A DNA stretch of 51,410 nucleotides from Parcubacteria group bacterium (GTDB lineage: Bacteria > Patescibacteriota > JABMPQ01), in assembly GCA_013202585.1 (NCBI GenBank), contig JABMPQ010000039.1, positions 1 through 51,410 of the forward strand, written 5' to 3'. Shown here in pieces: positions 664 to 51,326 of the stretch; within the stretch, counting starts at the first letter, position 1, and each line of letters begins with the position of its first letter. The notes beneath the pieces were generated by a model, which saw nothing but the letters and a program-made list of their open reading frames with translations, did no database searches and was not told where the DNA came from. Position numbers and translations under genes: made by a program.

Positions 664-2046
664 ATGAAAAAATCCGAATTAGCTTTTACCGCTGCGTTGG
701 TTCCCGTTGATTTCTTGATGATAATTTTGGCGGCAGTCATCACCTACTTTATTCGTTTTTCTGATCGAGTAGTGGAGATTTGGCCGGTGCAGTTTAATTT
801 ACCTTTGCGTCAGTATCTTTTACTGGCAATAGTAGTCACTCCCGTTTGGCTGCTTATTTTCGCCTTGCTGGGTCTTTATAACCCCAAGAAAAAGCGTCGG
901 CTAGTTGATGACTTATATAGCGTTTTTGTGGGAGTATCCACCGGAGTAATGGGAATCGTGTTATATATATTTTTACGAGCGGAACTTTTTTCCTCTCGTT
1001 TTTTGGTATTAGTGACTTGGTTGCTAGCAATAATTCTAATAGTGCTAGGTCGATCACTAATTCGTTGGCTACAGCACCGATTGTATAAATATAACTACGG
1101 GGTGCATCGAGTCGTGTTAATTGGTGATACTTCAGCTGCTAGACACATCAAAGATAGTTTCCAAAACCCACTGGCTGGTTATAAGATAGTGGGTATATTA
1201 GATGAAGTAAACGGCGACACGTTGCAAAAACTGGAGCAATTATCACGAGATCAAGGCGTGGATGAAATTATTCAGACAGATCCGGCCATTCCTAAAATCA
1301 AGGTTCTGGAGCTAATTGACTTTGCTGATGAGCGCAAAATTGACATGAAGTACATTCCTGACCTATTTGGCACGGAGGCTACTAATATAGAAGTAAGAGC
1401 GGTAGCGGGCTTTCCCCTGGTAGAATTTCGACGAACACCTCTAGATGGCTGGGGAAAGATCATTAAACGGATCATTGATGTAGTGGGCGCGACATTAGGA
1501 TTGATATTTTTACTGCCTTTATTTGTGGCTGTTGCCATTACTATTAAATTAAATACGCCAGGGACGGTATTAGTCAGATTAAAGCGAGTAGGCAGAGATG
1601 GTGAATTTGATATGTTCAAATTCCGCTCGATGGTTAAAGATGCGCACAAAATGAAAAAAGACCTGCTCAAGTTTAGTGAGCGTCAGGGTCCGTTATTTAA
1701 AATGAAAAATGATCCGCGTATTACTCGGGTAGGTAGGTTCTTACGCAAAACTAGGATCGATGAACTGCCTCAGTTGTTAAATGTGCTCAAGGATGACATG
1801 AGCTTGATTGGTCCGCGTCCCCACGAGCCAGAAGAGGTAGCGCAATATCAGAAACATCAGCGAAAAGTATTAGCTATTAAGCCGGGCATGACTGGCATGG
1901 GGCAGGTGAGTGGTGCTTCGGATCTCTCTTTTGCTGAAGAAGTAAAGCTAGATACTTATTATATCGAAAATTGGGCGCTAAAAATGGATTTGCAGATTTT
2001 ATTGCGTACTGTCAAGATTGTTTTGCAAGCGGAAGCCGCCCATTAG
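664..2046 (+). CDS. polyprenyl-phosphate sugar-1-phosphate transferase (WbaP/CpsE-like)
   Basis: The 460-aa membrane protein should transfer a sugar-1-phosphate from a nucleotide sugar to undecaprenyl phosphate, the first step of a surface polysaccharide or glycan. Hydrophobic segments near residues 10-31, 51-72, 83-105 and 112-132 precede a Rossmann-like region starting near 147 (VVLIGDTSAAR). A further membrane segment near 270-296 precedes the C-terminal catalytic domain, which has FKFRSMVKDA, RKTRIDELPQLLNVLK, SLIGPRPHEPEE and KPGMTGMGQVSG, the classic motif set of the bacterial sugar transferase family. Length and domain order are normal for the long form of the family. The sugar cannot be read from sequence. 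It stands alone between the rnpB promoter region and a terminator. Confidence 0.9.
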   Translation: MKKSELAFTAALVPVDFLMIILAAVITYFIRFSDRVVEIWPVQFNLPLRQYLLLAIVVTPVWLLIFALLGLYNPKKKRRLVDDLYSVFVGVSTGVMGIVLYIFLRAELFSSRFLVLVTWLLAIILIVLGRSLIRWLQHRLYKYNYGVHRVVLIGDTSAARHIKDSFQNPLAGYKIVGILDEVNGDTLQKLEQLSRDQGVDEIIQTDPAIPKIKVLELIDFADERKIDMKYIPDLFGTEATNIEVRAVAGFPLVEFRRTPLDGWGKIIKRIIDVVGATLGLIFLLPLFVAVAITIKLNTPGTVLVRLKRVGRDGEFDMFKFRSMVKDAHKMKKDLLKFSERQGPLFKMKNDPRITRVGRFLRKTRIDELPQLLNVLKDDMSLIGPRPHEPEEVAQYQKHQRKVLAIKPGMTGMGQVSGASDLSFAEEVKLDTYYIENWALKMDLQILLRTVKIVLQAEAAH

Positions 2047-2074
2047 ATTGTTTTCCAGTCGGCCAAATTAGACC

Positions 2075-2108
2075 AAAAACTCCAAAAATTGTAAATGGAG
2101 TTTTTGTT
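2075..2108 (+). terminator. Rho-independent terminator after the sugar transferase gene
   Basis: AAAAACTCCA (2075-2084) pairs with TGGAGTTTTT (2096-2105), followed by more T. The loop is 11 bases. Confidence 0.7.
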
Positions 2109-2158
2109 TAATATAAGGGCAATACAGTCAGCTAGGTGCTAAATTTAGCCAAAACCCC

Positions 2159-2247
2159 TTGACGATAAACGAAAAACTGATATTATGTCATGATCATTCA
2201 GAAAAGGCAAAATTGATGTTGACAATGTTGAGAGTTTGTGATACACT
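2159..2247 (+). promoter_or_regulatory. two tandem promoter candidates for the sigma4/HARE regulator gene
   Basis: The first candidate is TTGACG (2159-2164), 16 bases, TATTAT (2181-2186). The second is TTGACA (2219-2224), 17 bases, TACACT (2242-2247). Both face the gene at 2307 and both are close to consensus. Two starts would give the regulator alternative promoters, but no transcript data are available. Confidence 0.6.
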
Positions 2248-2306
2248 CTGATAAGAAGATAAGTTAGACGTATTAATAAATTGTTTAATATAAAGAAAGT
2301 AAACCA

Positions 2307-3389
2307 ATGACTAATCAGATAAATAATAACCCTAACAGTCAAGTGGAAGTGCAGGTGCTTCCCACCGATTTTGTGTTCAAACTAATTTCTAGTTTAAAGC
2401 CTAGAACCAAAGATATTTTGGTTAAACGCTTTGGATTAGACAGTGATCGTCGTCAGACGCTGGAAGAGATTGGTAAGAATCATGATATTACCAGGGAGCG
2501 GGTTCGACAAATTGAGTCAGCTGCTCTTAAGGATTTACAAAAAGGAAATAAGATAGAAGCGATTGAGCCCTGTGAGTCACTGTTGAAATCAGTTATCGCT
2601 GAACATGGTCAGGTTATGGAGCATAATCATTTGGTAGATACTTTTATAGAGAAAATATCACCAGCTGAAACTAATGGCAATGTAGTCGATTTTATTTTAA
2701 ATCTCAGCAATAAGTTCGATTGTCATGACAATACAGAGCATACTTATAAGGCCTGGGGGGCAAAAGGCGGCTCCATTGAAATACCACAAAAGGTTATTGA
2801 GGCTGCTCACCAAGTGTTAAAAAAGCAAAACAAGCCTCTACAAGAGCCAGAAATCGTAAAACATCTTTTGCAACACGAAACAGTTCAGAAACACGATGTC
2901 TCTGACCCTAAACACGTTCAATCTTATCTGAAATTAGGCAAGAAAATGCTAAAAAACCCATTTGATGAATGGGGATTTACTAGCTGGAATGAAATAGTAC
3001 CTAAGGGCGTGAAAGATAAAGCTTTTCTAGTACTCAAAAAGAACAAAGAGCCTCTCCACTTCAAAGAAATCACGGACAATATCAATAAAATAAGCTTTGG
3101 GGGTCGGCAGGCGATTCCTCAAACTGTGCATAATGAGCTGATTAAGGATGAACGTTTTGTCTTAGTTGGTCGCGGTATTTATGGACTAACTGAATGGGGA
3201 TATAGTTCAGGTACAGTAGCTGATGTGGTAGGACACGTCTTGAAAGAAGCCGGAAAACCAATGGCCAAAGACGAAATTATTTCTAAGGTTTTAGAGCAAA
3301 GAATAGTCAAACGTAATACAGTGGCCTTAGCTTTGCAAAATACGAAACGTTTCCAACGAGTTGATAAGCAATCTTATACTCTAGCCTAA
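2307..3389 (+). CDS. sigma-70 region 4 / HARE-HTH domain transcription regulator
   Basis: The N-terminal part (about residues 25-80) is a sigma-70 region 4 helix-turn-helix, with TLEEIGKNHDITRERVRQIE at 51-70 closely matching the -35-reading motif. There is no region 2 or 3, so it cannot act alone as a normal sigma factor. The remainder holds two or three winged-helix HARE-HTH-like modules, as in the RNA polymerase delta subunit: about 160-230 (uncertain), 235-296 (ending GRGIYGLTEWG) and 303-358. The likely role is an RNA polymerase-associated or -35-binding regulator; that is inference. It sits alone behind two candidate promoters and has no Shine-Dalgarno sequence. Confidence 0.75.
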   Translation: MTNQINNNPNSQVEVQVLPTDFVFKLISSLKPRTKDILVKRFGLDSDRRQTLEEIGKNHDITRERVRQIESAALKDLQKGNKIEAIEPCESLLKSVIAEHGQVMEHNHLVDTFIEKISPAETNGNVVDFILNLSNKFDCHDNTEHTYKAWGAKGGSIEIPQKVIEAAHQVLKKQNKPLQEPEIVKHLLQHETVQKHDVSDPKHVQSYLKLGKKMLKNPFDEWGFTSWNEIVPKGVKDKAFLVLKKNKEPLHFKEITDNINKISFGGRQAIPQTVHNELIKDERFVLVGRGIYGLTEWGYSSGTVADVVGHVLKEAGKPMAKDEIISKVLEQRIVKRNTVALALQNTKRFQRVDKQSYTLA

Positions 3390-44916: not shown

Positions 44917-44950
44917 GGCTAGCACGCTACCATACGTACTAGCCTTTTTT
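44917..44950 (+). terminator. terminator of the zinc-finger/67-aa pair
   Basis: GGCTAG (44917-44922) pairs with CTAGCC (44939-44944), then TTTTTT. Repeat copy 1 starts directly at its T tract. Confidence 0.75.
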
Positions 44951-45116
44951 AATATATATAGTGAGTAGCAGGGTAGGGTAAAATCTGATAATATATAATT
45001 AGACTTGTGGACGTAAATCAGGAACATAAACATATTCCTCCTGCCGCTGAATTATAGTTCTAACGTTGTCCACGATGTGCAGTAGATTATTTTAAGGCTT
45101 ACATCAGCCTTTTTTT
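44951..45116 (+). repeat. island repeat, copy 1 (full length)
   Basis: Copy 1 of a dispersed element of about 165 bp. In order it has TATATAGTGAGTAGC, the G-rich block GGGTAGGGTAAAATC, a TATAAT box (44994-44999), GTGGAC (45007-45012) directly followed by GTAAATC, a CAGGA/TCCTG hairpin, the long invariant GAATTATAGTTCTAACG, GTCCAC (45068-45073), GATGTGC, and the terminator AAGGCT/AGCCTT with seven T. It lies between the 67-aa gene and the radical SAM gene. In this copy the second pairing has one mismatch. Confidence 0.9.
45006..45116 (+). ncRNA. candidate structured small RNA from repeat copy 1
   Basis: A -10-like TATAAT at 44994-44999 predicts a start near 45006, just before the first pairing arm, and the Rho-independent terminator (45094-45116) sets the 3' end, giving about 111 nt. 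Whether it is an independent RNA or a leader of the radical SAM mRNA cannot be decided from sequence. No -35 box is visible; the conserved G-rich block occupies its place. Confidence 0.5.
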
Positions 45117-45200: not shown

Positions 45201-46307
45201 ATGGACTGGGGATATATGCTTGGTAGCACCTTTAAAACGCGCTGTGGCTGGATCTGGGAGATAGATAGGAGAGTGCGAGCCGGTCAGCTGCCTCCCGCCT
45301 ACCAGCGAACGGTAGTTAATCTGAGCGCAGCTTACTTCTTCTGGGGTTTGCTCAGTCGTCATTTGATCCGTGTGAGAAAAAGCTTCTCGCCCGTCGAGCT
45401 GCTAGTATCTATCACGGACTGGTGTCCTCACCAATGCCGCTATTGCTACAATCGCTCTGGTCAGGGTGAGTGTAAAGCCACCTACATCAATTTGGATCGG
45501 TTGAATGTAATCCTGGATGAGGTAAAAAAGGCTTTTGGCATCCGCTTTGCTGTCATCACTGGGGGAGAACCTTTTCCCTATGTGCTGAAGCTAGCTCAAA
45601 GACGACCTGACTTCACCTTCTTCGTTTACACCAGTGGGAATATCAGCGAACGTGCTTGCCAAGAAATGGTCAAGTTGGGTAACATCATTCCAGCTTTGAC
45701 TATTGTGGATGTCAATCCGGAGGTGCATGATTATATTCGGGGATCAGGAAGCTTTCAGCGGATTATGACAGCCCGGACACGGTTGCAATCTCATCAGCTT
45801 CCCTGGGGTTGGTCATTGACTTCATCACGGATCAATTTCCAACAACTGGTCAAGGGTGGACTGCTGGACAAGCTGGCGAGTTATCAGCCCTACTTTATCC
45901 GTGCCATGCCATGGATGCCAGTGGGACGATCAGATGAAGACCAAGTATTGTCGCTGGCGGAAATGGCGCAGGTGGGAAGTAATATTCGGGAGGCGCAGCA
46001 GCGAGGTATAGTGGTTTTCGACTATATCACTGCGCCAGTGGGTTATCCTTGTCTGGCGGGCGGGCGGCGTAGTTTCTTTGTGGCGCCAGATGGAAAAGGC
46101 GGCCTACGTATTTCACCTTGTGTCTTCATGGAAGGAGAGGTATCAGTCCCGATCACCTTTCGTGTTGATGGCTCGTCTACTCTACTGGAAACACTCCAGA
46201 ATAATCCTTGGTTTGTAAGTGCTAGAGATCTAGCGGGTCGTCATCAGTGCATTATTCACGCGAATCGCAGTGACTGGCCTCAGCTGGTGCGAGGAGAAAA
46301 AAGATAG
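45201..46307 (+). CDS. radical SAM enzyme with SPASM-like C-terminal cysteines
   Basis: The 368-aa protein has the radical SAM cluster motif C75-x3-C79-x2-C82 (CPHQCRYCYN) and the SAM-binding GGEPF at 121-125. The C-terminal part has YPCLAGGRRSFFVAPDG and ISPCVFMEG, like the auxiliary-cluster SPASM or twitch regions of peptide- and cofactor-modifying enzymes. The first 60 residues contain a hydrophobic patch (AAYFFWGLL). The substrate is unknown; no obvious Cys-rich peptide precursor is adjacent. A strong Shine-Dalgarno AAGGGAGG lies 7 bases before the ATG. It is flanked by repeat copies 1 and 2. Confidence 0.88.
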   Translation: MDWGYMLGSTFKTRCGWIWEIDRRVRAGQLPPAYQRTVVNLSAAYFFWGLLSRHLIRVRKSFSPVELLVSITDWCPHQCRYCYNRSGQGECKATYINLDRLNVILDEVKKAFGIRFAVITGGEPFPYVLKLAQRRPDFTFFVYTSGNISERACQEMVKLGNIIPALTIVDVNPEVHDYIRGSGSFQRIMTARTRLQSHQLPWGWSLTSSRINFQQLVKGGLLDKLASYQPYFIRAMPWMPVGRSDEDQVLSLAEMAQVGSNIREAQQRGIVVFDYITAPVGYPCLAGGRRSFFVAPDGKGGLRISPCVFMEGEVSVPITFRVDGSSTLLETLQNNPWFVSARDLAGRHQCIIHANRSDWPQLVRGEKR

Positions 46308-46314
46308 ATTGCTT

Positions 46315-46351
46315 GAGGGGATAGTTTCTACAACTATAACCCTCTTTTTTT
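46315..46351 (+). terminator. terminator of the radical SAM gene
   Basis: GAGGG plus ATAGTT pairs with AACTAT plus CCCTC (46315-46344), then seven T. Repeat copy 2 begins within a few bases. Confidence 0.85.
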
Positions 46352-46356
46352 ATCCA

Positions 46357-46520
46357 AATATATAGTGAGTAGCGGGGTGGGGTAAAATCTGATATTATAA
46401 GCTCAAGCTTGTGGACGCAAATCAGGTATATAAATATACTCATTCTGTCTCTGAATTATAGTTCTAACGTCGTCTACGATTTGCAGTAGATATTATTAAG
46501 GCTTGTTTAAGCCTTTTTTT
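46357..46520 (+). repeat. island repeat, copy 2 (full length)
   Basis: It has the same order of parts as copy 1. The G-rich block reads GGGGTGGGGTAAAATC. The first arms are GTGGAC (46411-46416) and GTCTAC (46472-46477), which pair with one G-U. The second arms GCAAATC (46417-46423) and GATTTGC (46478-46484) pair perfectly. Terminator AAGGCTT/AAGCCTT (46498-46515) with T tract. The -10-like box is displaced (TATTAT). Confidence 0.9.
46410..46520 (+). ncRNA. candidate structured small RNA from repeat copy 2
   Basis: Bounds are inferred as for copy 1: from just before the first pairing arm to the end of the T tract. The terminator loop (GTTT) differs from copies 1 and 4 while the stem is kept, as expected for selection on structure. 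Confidence 0.5.
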
Positions 46521-46654
46521 GATGGGGGAGAGTGTGGACGGTAGAACTACTAGATAAAAAAACTGCTCACAACGACTTGACTCTCGACACGCTGTACGTT
46601 ATTTTCAAAGTACAAGATGTCAAGCTAGAGCAATGTTCTAGTAAAGGAGGTGGC

Positions 46655-47966: not shown

Positions 47967-48121
47967 TAGAGTAGCGGGGTAGGGTAAAATCTGATAATAT
48001 ACAATTAGACTTGTGGACGCAAATCAGGAATGTGAATATACTCACTCTGTTGCTGAATTATAGTTCTAACGTTGTTCACGATTTGCAGTAGATATTATTA
48101 AGGCTTATTCAAGCCTTTTTT
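47967..48121 (+). repeat. island repeat, copy 4 (full length)
   Basis: Same order of parts; the first few bases (TATATAGTG) are replaced by TCTA. First arms GTGGAC (48013-48018) and GTTCAC (48074-48079) pair with one G-U at a different position from copy 2. Second arms GCAAATC (48019-48025) and GATTTGC (48080-48086) pair perfectly. Terminator AAGGCTT/AAGCCTT (48100-48117) with loop ATTC, then T tract. The -10-like box is TACAAT. Confidence 0.9.
48012..48121 (+). ncRNA. candidate structured small RNA from repeat copy 4
   Basis: Bounds are inferred as for copy 1. It ends 68 bases before the separate promoter of the 142-aa gene, so here the RNA is more likely an independent transcript than a leader. 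Confidence 0.5.
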
Positions 48122-48781: not shown

Positions 48782-48819
48782 ACCCGCGTTAGTTTTACCG
48801 ACTAGCGTGGGTCTTTTTT
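48782..48819 (+). terminator. terminator of the 142-aa protein gene
   Basis: ACCCGCGTTAG (48782-48792) pairs with CTAGCGTGGGT (48802-48812) with G-U pairs, then TTTTTT. Repeat copy 5 starts at its T tract. Confidence 0.8.
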
Positions 48820-48949
48820 ATATAGTGAAGTAGCAGGGTAGGGTAAAATCTGATAATATATAATTAGACTTGTGGACGTAAATCAGGAACATAAACATAC
48901 TCACCCTGTCTCTGAATTATAGTTCTAACGTTGTCCACGATTTGCAGTA
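48819..48949 (+). repeat. island repeat, copy 5 (3' truncated)
   Basis: It matches copy 1 almost base for base through TTTGCAGTA and then diverges, losing the terminator. First arms GTGGAC (48872-48877) and GTCCAC (48933-48938) are perfect. Second arms GTAAATC and GATTTGC pair with one U-G. It precedes the secreted lamin-tail protein gene, which has its own promoter. Confidence 0.9.
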
Positions 48950-49005
48950 TTAGGGTGTAAAAAATGCTCTGAAGATCATATTTAGATCAAACCTGTGGAC
49001 AAACA

Positions 49006-49143: not shown

Positions 49144-49926
49144 ATGAAAAAATCACTTCTCCTGACACTAGCCGGATTAGTGGTCCTAACTGTTCTTGCT
49201 TTCGGCTTACCAAGTCAAACCAAAGCTTCCGGTCCAGCTTCGGAACATCTCAAGGGATACATTCTTTTACAAGTAGAGAATAATGGCGAAGCGTGGTATA
49301 TCGATCCTCAAGATGGATATCGTTATTACCTGGCTCGTCCGACAGATGCTTTTAATATAATGCGTTTACTGGGTTTGGGAGCTACTCACGCCGACATTGA
49401 AAAAATCCCATCTAATTTACACAATGATAGCGATTTATTGTTCGCCAACATGCATATCGGAGAAATATTACTAGATGTCGAACGTAATGGCGAGGCTTGG
49501 TATATCTATCCAGGGGATATGTGGGGTTACTATCTCGATCGTCCAGGCACCGCTTTTCAGGTTATGCGTAATACCGGACTAGGGGCAACTGATAGCACAG
49601 TGATGGGTATCACTCCTAATATATCTATTTCCGGTGTGCGTTATGATGGCACTGGCTCAGCTGAGCCGGATGAATTTGTCCAGCTAGTCAATAATGGTCG
49701 GATGGCTCAGGATGTTGGCCAGTGGACGATAGAGGATGGTGATGGACACGAATTCGAATTTCCCGGAGGATATACTATCCAGCCTGGTGAATTTGTCAGA
49801 ATTTTTACCAACACGGGCGATCTTTCCTTTGATAGTGGCACAGCTATTTGGAATAATGACGGCGATACTTGCTTCTTGTATGGCTCCACAGGCTCGCTGG
49901 TTGATATGTATGCTTATAGTTTTTAA
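49144..49926 (+). CDS. secreted protein with two GEAWYI repeats and a lamin-tail domain
   Basis: The N-terminus is a signal peptide (MKK, hydrophobic core about 4-21, likely cleavage near TKA-SG at residue 29). Two homologous repeats follow (about 37-89 and 104-157), each with the frame NGEAWYI-P-D-YYL-RP-AF-MR-GLGAT. The C-terminal 100 residues are a lamin-tail (LTD) fold: ISGVRYDGTGSAEPDEFVQL, then GQWTIEDGDGHEFEFPGGY. It should be exported and may bind carbohydrate, DNA or another surface partner. Similar repeat proteins are common in Patescibacteria. The leader is structured and no Shine-Dalgarno sequence is seen. Confidence 0.82.
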   Translation: MKKSLLLTLAGLVVLTVLAFGLPSQTKASGPASEHLKGYILLQVENNGEAWYIDPQDGYRYYLARPTDAFNIMRLLGLGATHADIEKIPSNLHNDSDLLFANMHIGEILLDVERNGEAWYIYPGDMWGYYLDRPGTAFQVMRNTGLGATDSTVMGITPNISISGVRYDGTGSAEPDEFVQLVNNGRMAQDVGQWTIEDGDGHEFEFPGGYTIQPGEFVRIFTNTGDLSFDSGTAIWNNDGDTCFLYGSTGSLVDMYAYSF

Positions 49927-50045: not shown

Positions 50046-51098
50046 CTAGAGCGGAGTGTTAGGATCTTCCTTGCCCAATTCGTATTTCCAGATTCGGTAA
50101 GTAGCCGGATCGTAGAATCGACCATCCGGTAAGTGGGAAAGTGTCCCTACTACTCGCAAGTGGTCACTGAAAGCGAAATACCTTGGTGGTAAAGGATTAA
50201 TCCTAAACTCCATGTCCGCAATTTTCTGGTAGATCGTGGTCAAGGTAGCTTCGTCCAGAGCCATTTCCTCTTGTCCAGGAGAAGAGGGTTTAATGATCGA
50301 CAAGCGGAAGAAGTATTTTCCCTTCATTCCCTTCAGAGTCTCGCAGAACTTCCAGAAAACTTCTTCGTCATCTCCGCGAAAGAGGCCGGGAGCGAAGCAG
50401 ACTTGGTCGTGGGGATTTACGGCCATCCAAGCTTCAACCAGCTCTCTCGTCTCGGAAGCCAACATTAGTCCTCGAGCACCGGGGATAACGGATATCTGGA
50501 GATGAATCGAAGCCTGGGAGAGATTCTCTCGTTGCCAGCGCAGAAGATTATCGAAGGCTTCCCGCGTTCGCCGGTCATTTTTGAGGACAGTACTGATCTT
50601 AATTCCCAGCACTTTCCCTTTCATCCCAAACAACCCAACCAACTGATCTAAGACCGCCGGCAGCAAGGGATTCTCCAAAGGCTCACCGTTGTCCGTAAAT
50701 TTAAGGGAGAGTTGTCTCTTGTCGGTGCGGAAGTCGTGGTGGCGCGAGTATAGAAACAGTGGCGCTCGGAAGAGATCAACCATCTCGGCCACGCTCAAGT
50801 TGCGGTAGTAGGGCAAGTGGCAGTAGACACAGAAGGGACAGGCCTTAACAGAACACCCGTACTGAGTACCCGTGCAGACCATCAATTTCCCCTTCTCATC
50901 TTTTACATTCGGTGTCGTCTCATCGACGATAGTGGTGAGGAAGAATTCTCGCAGATCAGCCGGGGCAAAATGGAAGCCAAGACAAACCCCATCCTCCGGA
51001 CAGTTAGAGGAATCTACTCCTCTCGCTAATCGTAAGCAGTAGGGTGGCTCGAGAACTTCTAGATTTACCTCTTTTACTTTGATCCTCTCTCCTGGCAT
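50046..51098 (-). CDS. RlmN-like radical SAM protein with a CX4CX2C motif
   Basis: The 350-aa sequence follows the RlmN/Cfr pattern: VCTGTQYGC then PFC and YYRNLSVAEMVDL (compare SSQ-GC, C-FC and RNL-AEI of RlmN), a GEPLENP segment and an ISTVLK strand. The cluster cysteines are C82, C87 and C90, so the spacing is CX4CX2C instead of CX3CX2C, with an additional C93. I checked this on the nucleotide sequence. RlmN methylates A2503 of 23S rRNA; whether this divergent protein modifies RNA is open. The Shine-Dalgarno AAAGGAGG precedes the ATG. A long leader with a terminator-like hairpin lies upstream. Confidence 0.75.
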   Translation of the reverse strand: MPGERIKVKEVNLEVLEPPYCLRLARGVDSSNCPEDGVCLGFHFAPADLREFFLTTIVDETTPNVKDEKGKLMVCTGTQYGCSVKACPFCVYCHLPYYRNLSVAEMVDLFRAPLFLYSRHHDFRTDKRQLSLKFTDNGEPLENPLLPAVLDQLVGLFGMKGKVLGIKISTVLKNDRRTREAFDNLLRWQRENLSQASIHLQISVIPGARGLMLASETRELVEAWMAVNPHDQVCFAPGLFRGDDEEVFWKFCETLKGMKGKYFFRLSIIKPSSPGQEEMALDEATLTTIYQKIADMEFRINPLPPRYFAFSDHLRVVGTLSHLPDGRFYDPATYRIWKYELGKEDPNTPL

Positions 51099-51145
51099 AG
51101 CATCCTCCTTTTAGTTGTCAAAGAACAAAACAAGAACAAAACAAA

Positions 51146-51171
51146 AAACGCCCCCCGTCAGGGAGGCGTTT
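51146..51171 (-). terminator. terminator-like hairpin in the leader of the RlmN-like gene
   Basis: On the minus strand, AAACGCC plus CCC pairs with GGG plus GGCGTTT, followed by a T-rich tail (TTTTTTGTTTTGTTC). It lies about 50 bases before the start codon and downstream of the promoter, the position of a transcription attenuator. Confidence 0.65.
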
Positions 51172-51286
51172 CTTCTCGGTTTTTTAGGCTAAGCTAGTAA
51201 GCTACCAAATTAAAACAAAGAAAGTCCCACAACGAGGCTTGGGGTCGTTCTTTGTCTTCTTAACTTGTAACATTATTTGATTAACC

Positions 51287-51326
51287 ATTGTATTAATACA
51301 ATACTGAAATGTTGATAAGTTGTCAA
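51287..51326 (-). promoter_or_regulatory. promoter with overlapping operator-like palindrome for the RlmN-like gene
   Basis: On the minus strand, TTGACA (51321-51326), 17 bases, TATTGT (51298-51303). The perfect 16-bp palindrome ATTGTATTAATACAAT (51287-51302) covers the -10 box and start point, as a repressor site would. Confidence 0.65.

Follow-up and report, generated by a model that had tools for sequence, protein, structure and literature searches.

A putative genus-restricted radical SAM enzyme related to RlmN and Cfr carries a CX4CX2C motif and an attenuator-like leader in Patescibacteria

Introduction

RlmN and Cfr are 23S rRNA A2503 methyltransferases of the class A radical SAM methylases, and their cluster cysteines are spaced CX3CX2C. 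In RlmN, the methyl carrier is Cys355, which becomes methylated itself; Cys118 deprotonates the intermediate, and both cysteines are needed for the reaction (PMC12871812). The spacing CX4CX2C is found in GenD1 of gentamicin biosynthesis, a cobalamin-dependent radical SAM methyltransferase outside the RlmN branch that is active in vitro (PMC4340712); a working cluster can therefore be held by cysteines in this spacing. Leader-peptide attenuators, such as those of pheL-type amino-acid operons and of the drug-inducible bmrCD and mef/msr(D), combine a promoter, a short ORF, competing hairpins and a terminator ahead of a structural gene. Lys/Arg-x-Lys/Arg is a known stall motif of ketolide-bound ribosomes (PMC8298421).

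Here, we describe a gene in a 51,410-nt stretch of DNA (the window), which is one entire contig of a 1.22 Mb draft genome rated 79% complete. The encoded protein is like RlmN and Cfr in its core and like GenD1 in its cluster motif.

Results

The CX4CX2C spacing is shared with an independent genome of the same genus

We found that the cysteine motif of the 350-aa protein reads Q79-Y-G-C82-S-V-K-A-C87-P-F-C90-V-Y-C93, and the CX4CX2C spacing with C93 as an extra cysteine, as the initial annotation had it, is exact in the minus-strand ORF (Table 1). That annotation had named an alignment with homologues as one way to check the spacing. We found one full-length homologue (n = 1), encoded on contig JAHJQX010000021.1 of an independent genome of the same genus (G001, the sole other genus member in the genome collection) and 54% identical over 350 residues. 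Its motif, GCSVRICPFCIYR, is also CX4CX2C, and C82, C87, C90 and the NGEP sequence are kept in both genus members. In contrast, CX3CX2C is the spacing in all RlmN-like loci that we fetched, whether from the phylum or from other bacteria; CX4CX2C is thus a conserved trait of the genus that true RlmNs lack. The homologue has arginine in place of C93, and a role of C93 as a functional fourth cluster ligand is therefore not supported. An assembly or sequencing artefact, in the form of a one-codon insertion found in this assembly alone, had been named as what would undo the claim, and the assembly is indeed an incomplete draft; however, the identical spacing in an independent genome already refutes this explanation and leaves it virtually no chance.

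To see how far the spacing extends, we searched 380 genomes of the phylum for a degenerate DNA pattern that encodes Q-x-G-C-x4-C-x-[FY]-C and found it within a long reading frame in these two genomes only; the 3 further matches all lie in non-protein frames of 14 to 65 codons, and no other CX4CX2C RlmN-like protein was found in this set. When the search was widened to 84,980 species genomes, it returned ordinary RlmNs only beyond the one homologue, and we found no literature on CX4CX2C in an RlmN. When the enzyme genes of the two genomes were compared, changes at codon positions 1, 2 and 3 were 0.36, 0.29 and 0.63, which suggests that the gene is kept by purifying selection; with two orthologues (n = 2), conservation is thinly sampled. 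The best reading of the sequence comparisons is that the enzyme is genus-restricted and derived from the RlmN/Cfr fold. A mobile or viral origin of the gene was considered and rejected, as no relatives of the enzyme were found in viral contigs, phages or plasmids.

Table 1. Positions in the window of the enzyme gene, its motifs and its leader
Feature	Position	Strand	Basis or remark
Sigma-70-like promoter TTGACA-17-TATTGT	51298..51326	-	Leader ATG starts 9 nt past the -10 hexamer
Leader ORF MVNQIMLQVKKTKNDPKPRCGTFFVLIW and stop, 28 codons	51202..51288	-	Candidate, conserved in homologue
Candidate antiterminator strand GTTGTGGGACTTTCTT	51218..51233	-	Predicted pairing with terminator 5' arm (51157-51174) if the leader ORF start is covered
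Intrinsic-terminator-like hairpin and T run, separating leader ORF from enzyme gene	51143..51174	-	Conserved in homologue
Ribosome-binding site AAGGAGG of enzyme gene	51104..51110	-	Sequence
RlmN/Cfr-related radical SAM gene, 350 aa	50046..51098	-	ORF, ATG to stop
C82-X4-C87-X2-C90 codons, predicted [4Fe-4S] ligands	50829..50855	-	Sequence comparison
C93 codon, not conserved	50820-50822	-	Arg in homologue
NGEPL motif, equivalent of RlmN GMGEPL (SAM binding)	50676..50690	-	Alignment with homologue and RlmNs
R-V-V-G-T-L codons, aligned with RlmN A-A-C-G-Q-L; methyl-carrier Cys position is Val317	50139..50156	-	Alignment

The protein is related to RlmN and Cfr and lacks the methyl-carrier cysteine

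The best NCBIfam matches of the protein are RlmN (8.9e-6) and Cfr (2e-5), both far below their cut-offs; the RlmN model TIGR00048 scores 24.9 bits against a curated threshold of 290. A Pfam search matched no family, PF04055 included, and the protein is not in the PF04055 listing of its own genome. When a profile of the two genus proteins was aligned with one of 19 RlmNs using hhalign, we obtained a probability of 97.6% over 178 columns, which cover the core only, and this alignment places one inserted residue between the first two cysteines of the genus proteins. The conserved part contains QxGC, CxFC, RNLSVxEM and GEPLxN. The genus proteins share with RlmN and Cfr a similar length and a homologous core that runs from QxGC...CxFC...RNL up to GEP and on through the next strands, and differ from them in the N- and C-terminal regions.

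The remainder of the RlmN pattern had been described as recognisable, which holds for QxGC...CxFC...RNL and GEP and fails for the C-terminal AACGQL. At the methyl-carrier position within AACGQL (E. coli Cys355), both genus proteins have valine, in RVVGTL and RSVGTL, and the position of the second catalytic cysteine (E. coli Cys118) is C75 in the window protein and glutamine in the homologue. From these alignments, we conclude that the protein is a relative of RlmN/Cfr and not a member. Because the methyl-carrier cysteine is missing, S-methylcysteine chemistry by this enzyme is unlikely. The proposal that the altered spacing marks a changed function is well supported in its outcome, although the loss of the RlmN catalytic cysteine is a stronger reason for it than the spacing.

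We considered whether the protein is a drifted RlmN of the genus that still methylates A2503/A37. RlmN is its best family match, the QxGC, RNL and GEP motifs are retained, and no bona fide RlmN was found elsewhere in either genus genome (G001 is rated 100% complete, the window genome 79%). However, both genomes lack the methyl carrier and one has glutamine at the Cys118 position, a score of 25 bits is remote from the 290-bit cut-off, and related genomes of the same order carry either a canonical RlmN or no RlmN at all, so that RlmN loss is ordinary here; we judge this explanation decidedly unlikely. Among genomes of the same order, G002, G003 and G005 have no RlmN match, and G006 has a partial match (C85:5922-6767, locus L023; model positions 76-343) with one stop codon inside; RlmN loss therefore seems common in this order. 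The lost catalytic residues and the lack of a Pfam match would also fit a relic, that is, a decaying and inactive RlmN copy. Against this, the frame is full-length in two genomes with the cluster motif retained, the codon-position changes are typical of purifying selection, and the promoter and leader described below are conserved, which makes a relic very improbable.

Radical SAM features of the protein and surroundings of the gene

A three-cysteine cluster motif and a GGEP-like motif in an alpha/beta barrel characterise radical SAM enzymes, and we found both motifs in the protein, with the barrel order predicted at low to moderate confidence. An AlphaFold2 model built with RlmN rows has a pLDDT of 62, and one built with the two genus proteins alone is poorer (pLDDT 49). 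Both models show alternating strands and helices over residues 103-295, as in a radical SAM barrel; the cluster region is the poorest part of the models, too poor for a reading of cluster geometry. A Foldseek search of the PDB with the AlphaFold2 model gave no match below 1e-3, and the weak matches listed include DesII, lysine 2,3-aminomutase and lipoyl synthase. Although the cluster motif is like that of GenD1, no cobalamin-binding family in Pfam or NCBIfam matches the window protein. CX4CX2C is thus already known in the radical SAM superfamily, and what is unusual is its presence on an RlmN/Cfr scaffold.

The gene had been placed in an island that carries another radical SAM enzyme. This picture is not supported, as most of the window is ordinary chromosome (MreB, FtsQ-like, alanine racemase, tRNA synthetases) and the other radical SAM gene is 4 kb off on the opposite strand. 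The second radical SAM protein, encoded at 45201-46307 (+), has a CX3CX2C motif (CPHQCRYC), and its nearest NCBIfam model is WgkB (1.6e-18, far below the cut-off).

We also observed an intergenic repeat of ~138 bp on the plus strand of the window (44945-45082, 46346-46486, 47969-48088 and 48819-48963), of which this genome has 6 longer copies and the same-genus genome has 4. Several of them precede a same-strand ORF (the radical SAM gene at 45201, the ORFs at 46532 and 48283, and the LTD protein at 49144). Possible pairings GTGGAC/GTCCAC and GTAAATC/GATTTGC would cross to form a pseudoknot, and in two G001 copies both parts are changed. The repeat has no Rfam match; we regard it as a candidate for either a structured RNA or a small mobile repeat. 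On the contig of the orthologue, a 1.3-kb stretch occurs twice (L064:1-1304 and 1901-3204) with 75% identity, an old tandem gene duplication.

A conserved leader precedes the enzyme gene

The enzyme gene of the window is preceded by a good sigma-70-like promoter, a short ORF, a strong terminator-like hairpin and a ribosome-binding site (Table 1), an arrangement that the initial annotation had missed. In G001, the orthologue is preceded by a good sigma-70-like promoter (TTGACA-18-TATACT), a 26-codon ORF, a strong terminator-like hairpin with a T run and a ribosome-binding site. We thus see the same leader parts directly in both genomes: the order promoter, ORF, terminator, gene is identical and the leader ATG lies 9-10 nt after the -10 box in each. 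The adjoining genes differ between the genomes, which indicates that conservation of the leader is specific to the enzyme gene. When the leader ORFs are aligned, gaps inside them are multiples of three and gaps past the stop codon are not. There is no third-position excess in the leader ORF (12/10/13 changes in 27 codons), and translation of the peptide is therefore unproven.

To find further copies, we ran a covariance model of the leader on 287 genomes, which gave three credible places, both enzyme leaders and one more in G001 (C21, L063:1703-2245; E 2.6e-5). This third copy is built of the same parts; downstream of it lie the gene of a 112-residue zinc-ribbon protein (P0004) and then a second Cys-rich ORF, and no radical SAM gene adjoins. 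Its promoter scores 10 of 12, and a simple terminator scan does not list its hairpin on that strand. No further credible copy of the leader was found in 38 relatives, and no P0004 orthologue was found in the window's own genome. The next-best matches, L091 and L068, were rejected as ordinary terminators near gene ends. The leader peptides are MVNQIMLQVKKTKNDPKPRCGTFFVLIW in the window and MNYQISQAKKARNYSLNPWDFFAVFR and MVIICCLQFKKAKKSPTFRCGVSLFNL in the other two copies; K-K-x-K/R is common to all three, and the window and third-copy peptides also share LQ-x-KK-x-K-x-x-P-x-x-RCG.

Folding predicts a hairpin within the ORF plus the terminator as the default state. When a ribosome sits on the K-K-x-K/R codons, antiterminator pairing between the second half of the ORF and the 5' arm of the terminator is predicted in 3/3 leaders. 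In the third copy, this pairing is stronger than in 1000/1000 shuffles of the ORF strand; in the window and orthologue leaders it is not stronger than shuffles, and the ORF hairpin is significant in 2/3 leaders only. The arrangement looks like leader-peptide transcription attenuation and, with its competing hairpins as predicted, has the same succession of parts as the known attenuators, from which it differs in that peptide and RNA are unrelated in sequence; Rfam Phe_leader is matched below threshold only, with E 3e-4 for the window copy and E 0.5 for the third.

A small upstream ORF and a terminator ahead of a maturase gene are also a common layout of RiPP precursors and their maturases. Here, the ORF of 26-28 codons, directly upstream of the gene with the terminator between them, could be a precursor peptide in which K-K-x-K/R and F residues recur, with the enzyme as its radical SAM maturase. 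Against this, the same leader precedes the zinc-ribbon gene, which is unrelated and has no radical SAM gene beside it, the small ORF lacks third-position bias, and NCBIfam matches the window protein to neither a SPASM domain nor a RiPP family. We regard a RiPP system as unlikely; the occurrence of one leader in front of unrelated genes fits a control element better than a RiPP precursor. Since Lys/Arg-x-Lys/Arg stalls ketolide-bound ribosomes, a drug-responsive switch is possible, and we note it as a lead.

Discussion

Taken together, these data lead us to favour, at somewhat better than an even chance, a genus-restricted radical SAM enzyme of RlmN/Cfr descent that lacks RlmN chemistry and lies behind a leader-peptide attenuator. 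In such an enzyme, C82, C87 and C90 most likely bind the [4Fe-4S] cluster, and, as in the family, the GEP motif would help bind SAM, which would be cleaved to a 5'-deoxyadenosyl radical. For the reaction itself, we infer that hydrogen is probably abstracted directly from the substrate, because the methyl-carrying cysteine of RlmN is absent. Ancestry and regulation together make RNA or a ribosome-associated substrate our first guess. By default, RNA polymerase would start just before the 28-codon ORF and stop at the terminator. We propose that an inducer would make a ribosome stall near the K-K-T-K codons, whereupon the second half of the ORF would pair with the 5' side of the terminator stem and allow read-through into the enzyme gene.

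A bolder proposal, which we hold to be rather doubtful as a whole, is that the enzyme represents a new radical SAM class on the RlmN/Cfr fold, with CX4CX2C and without S-methylcysteine chemistry, that modifies the translation machinery and is induced when ribosomes stall on a leader peptide with Lys-Lys-x-Lys/Arg; together with zinc-ribbon proteins, it would belong to a small response to stress or drugs in this Patescibacteria genus. If this is true, the RlmN/Cfr fold would have been reused in radical chemistry of a second kind, and with a cluster motif that none of the RlmNs compared has. In Patescibacteria, a group with hardly any studies of gene regulation, the leader would then serve as a testable ribosome-sensing switch and offer a way to learn what signal the enzyme responds to.
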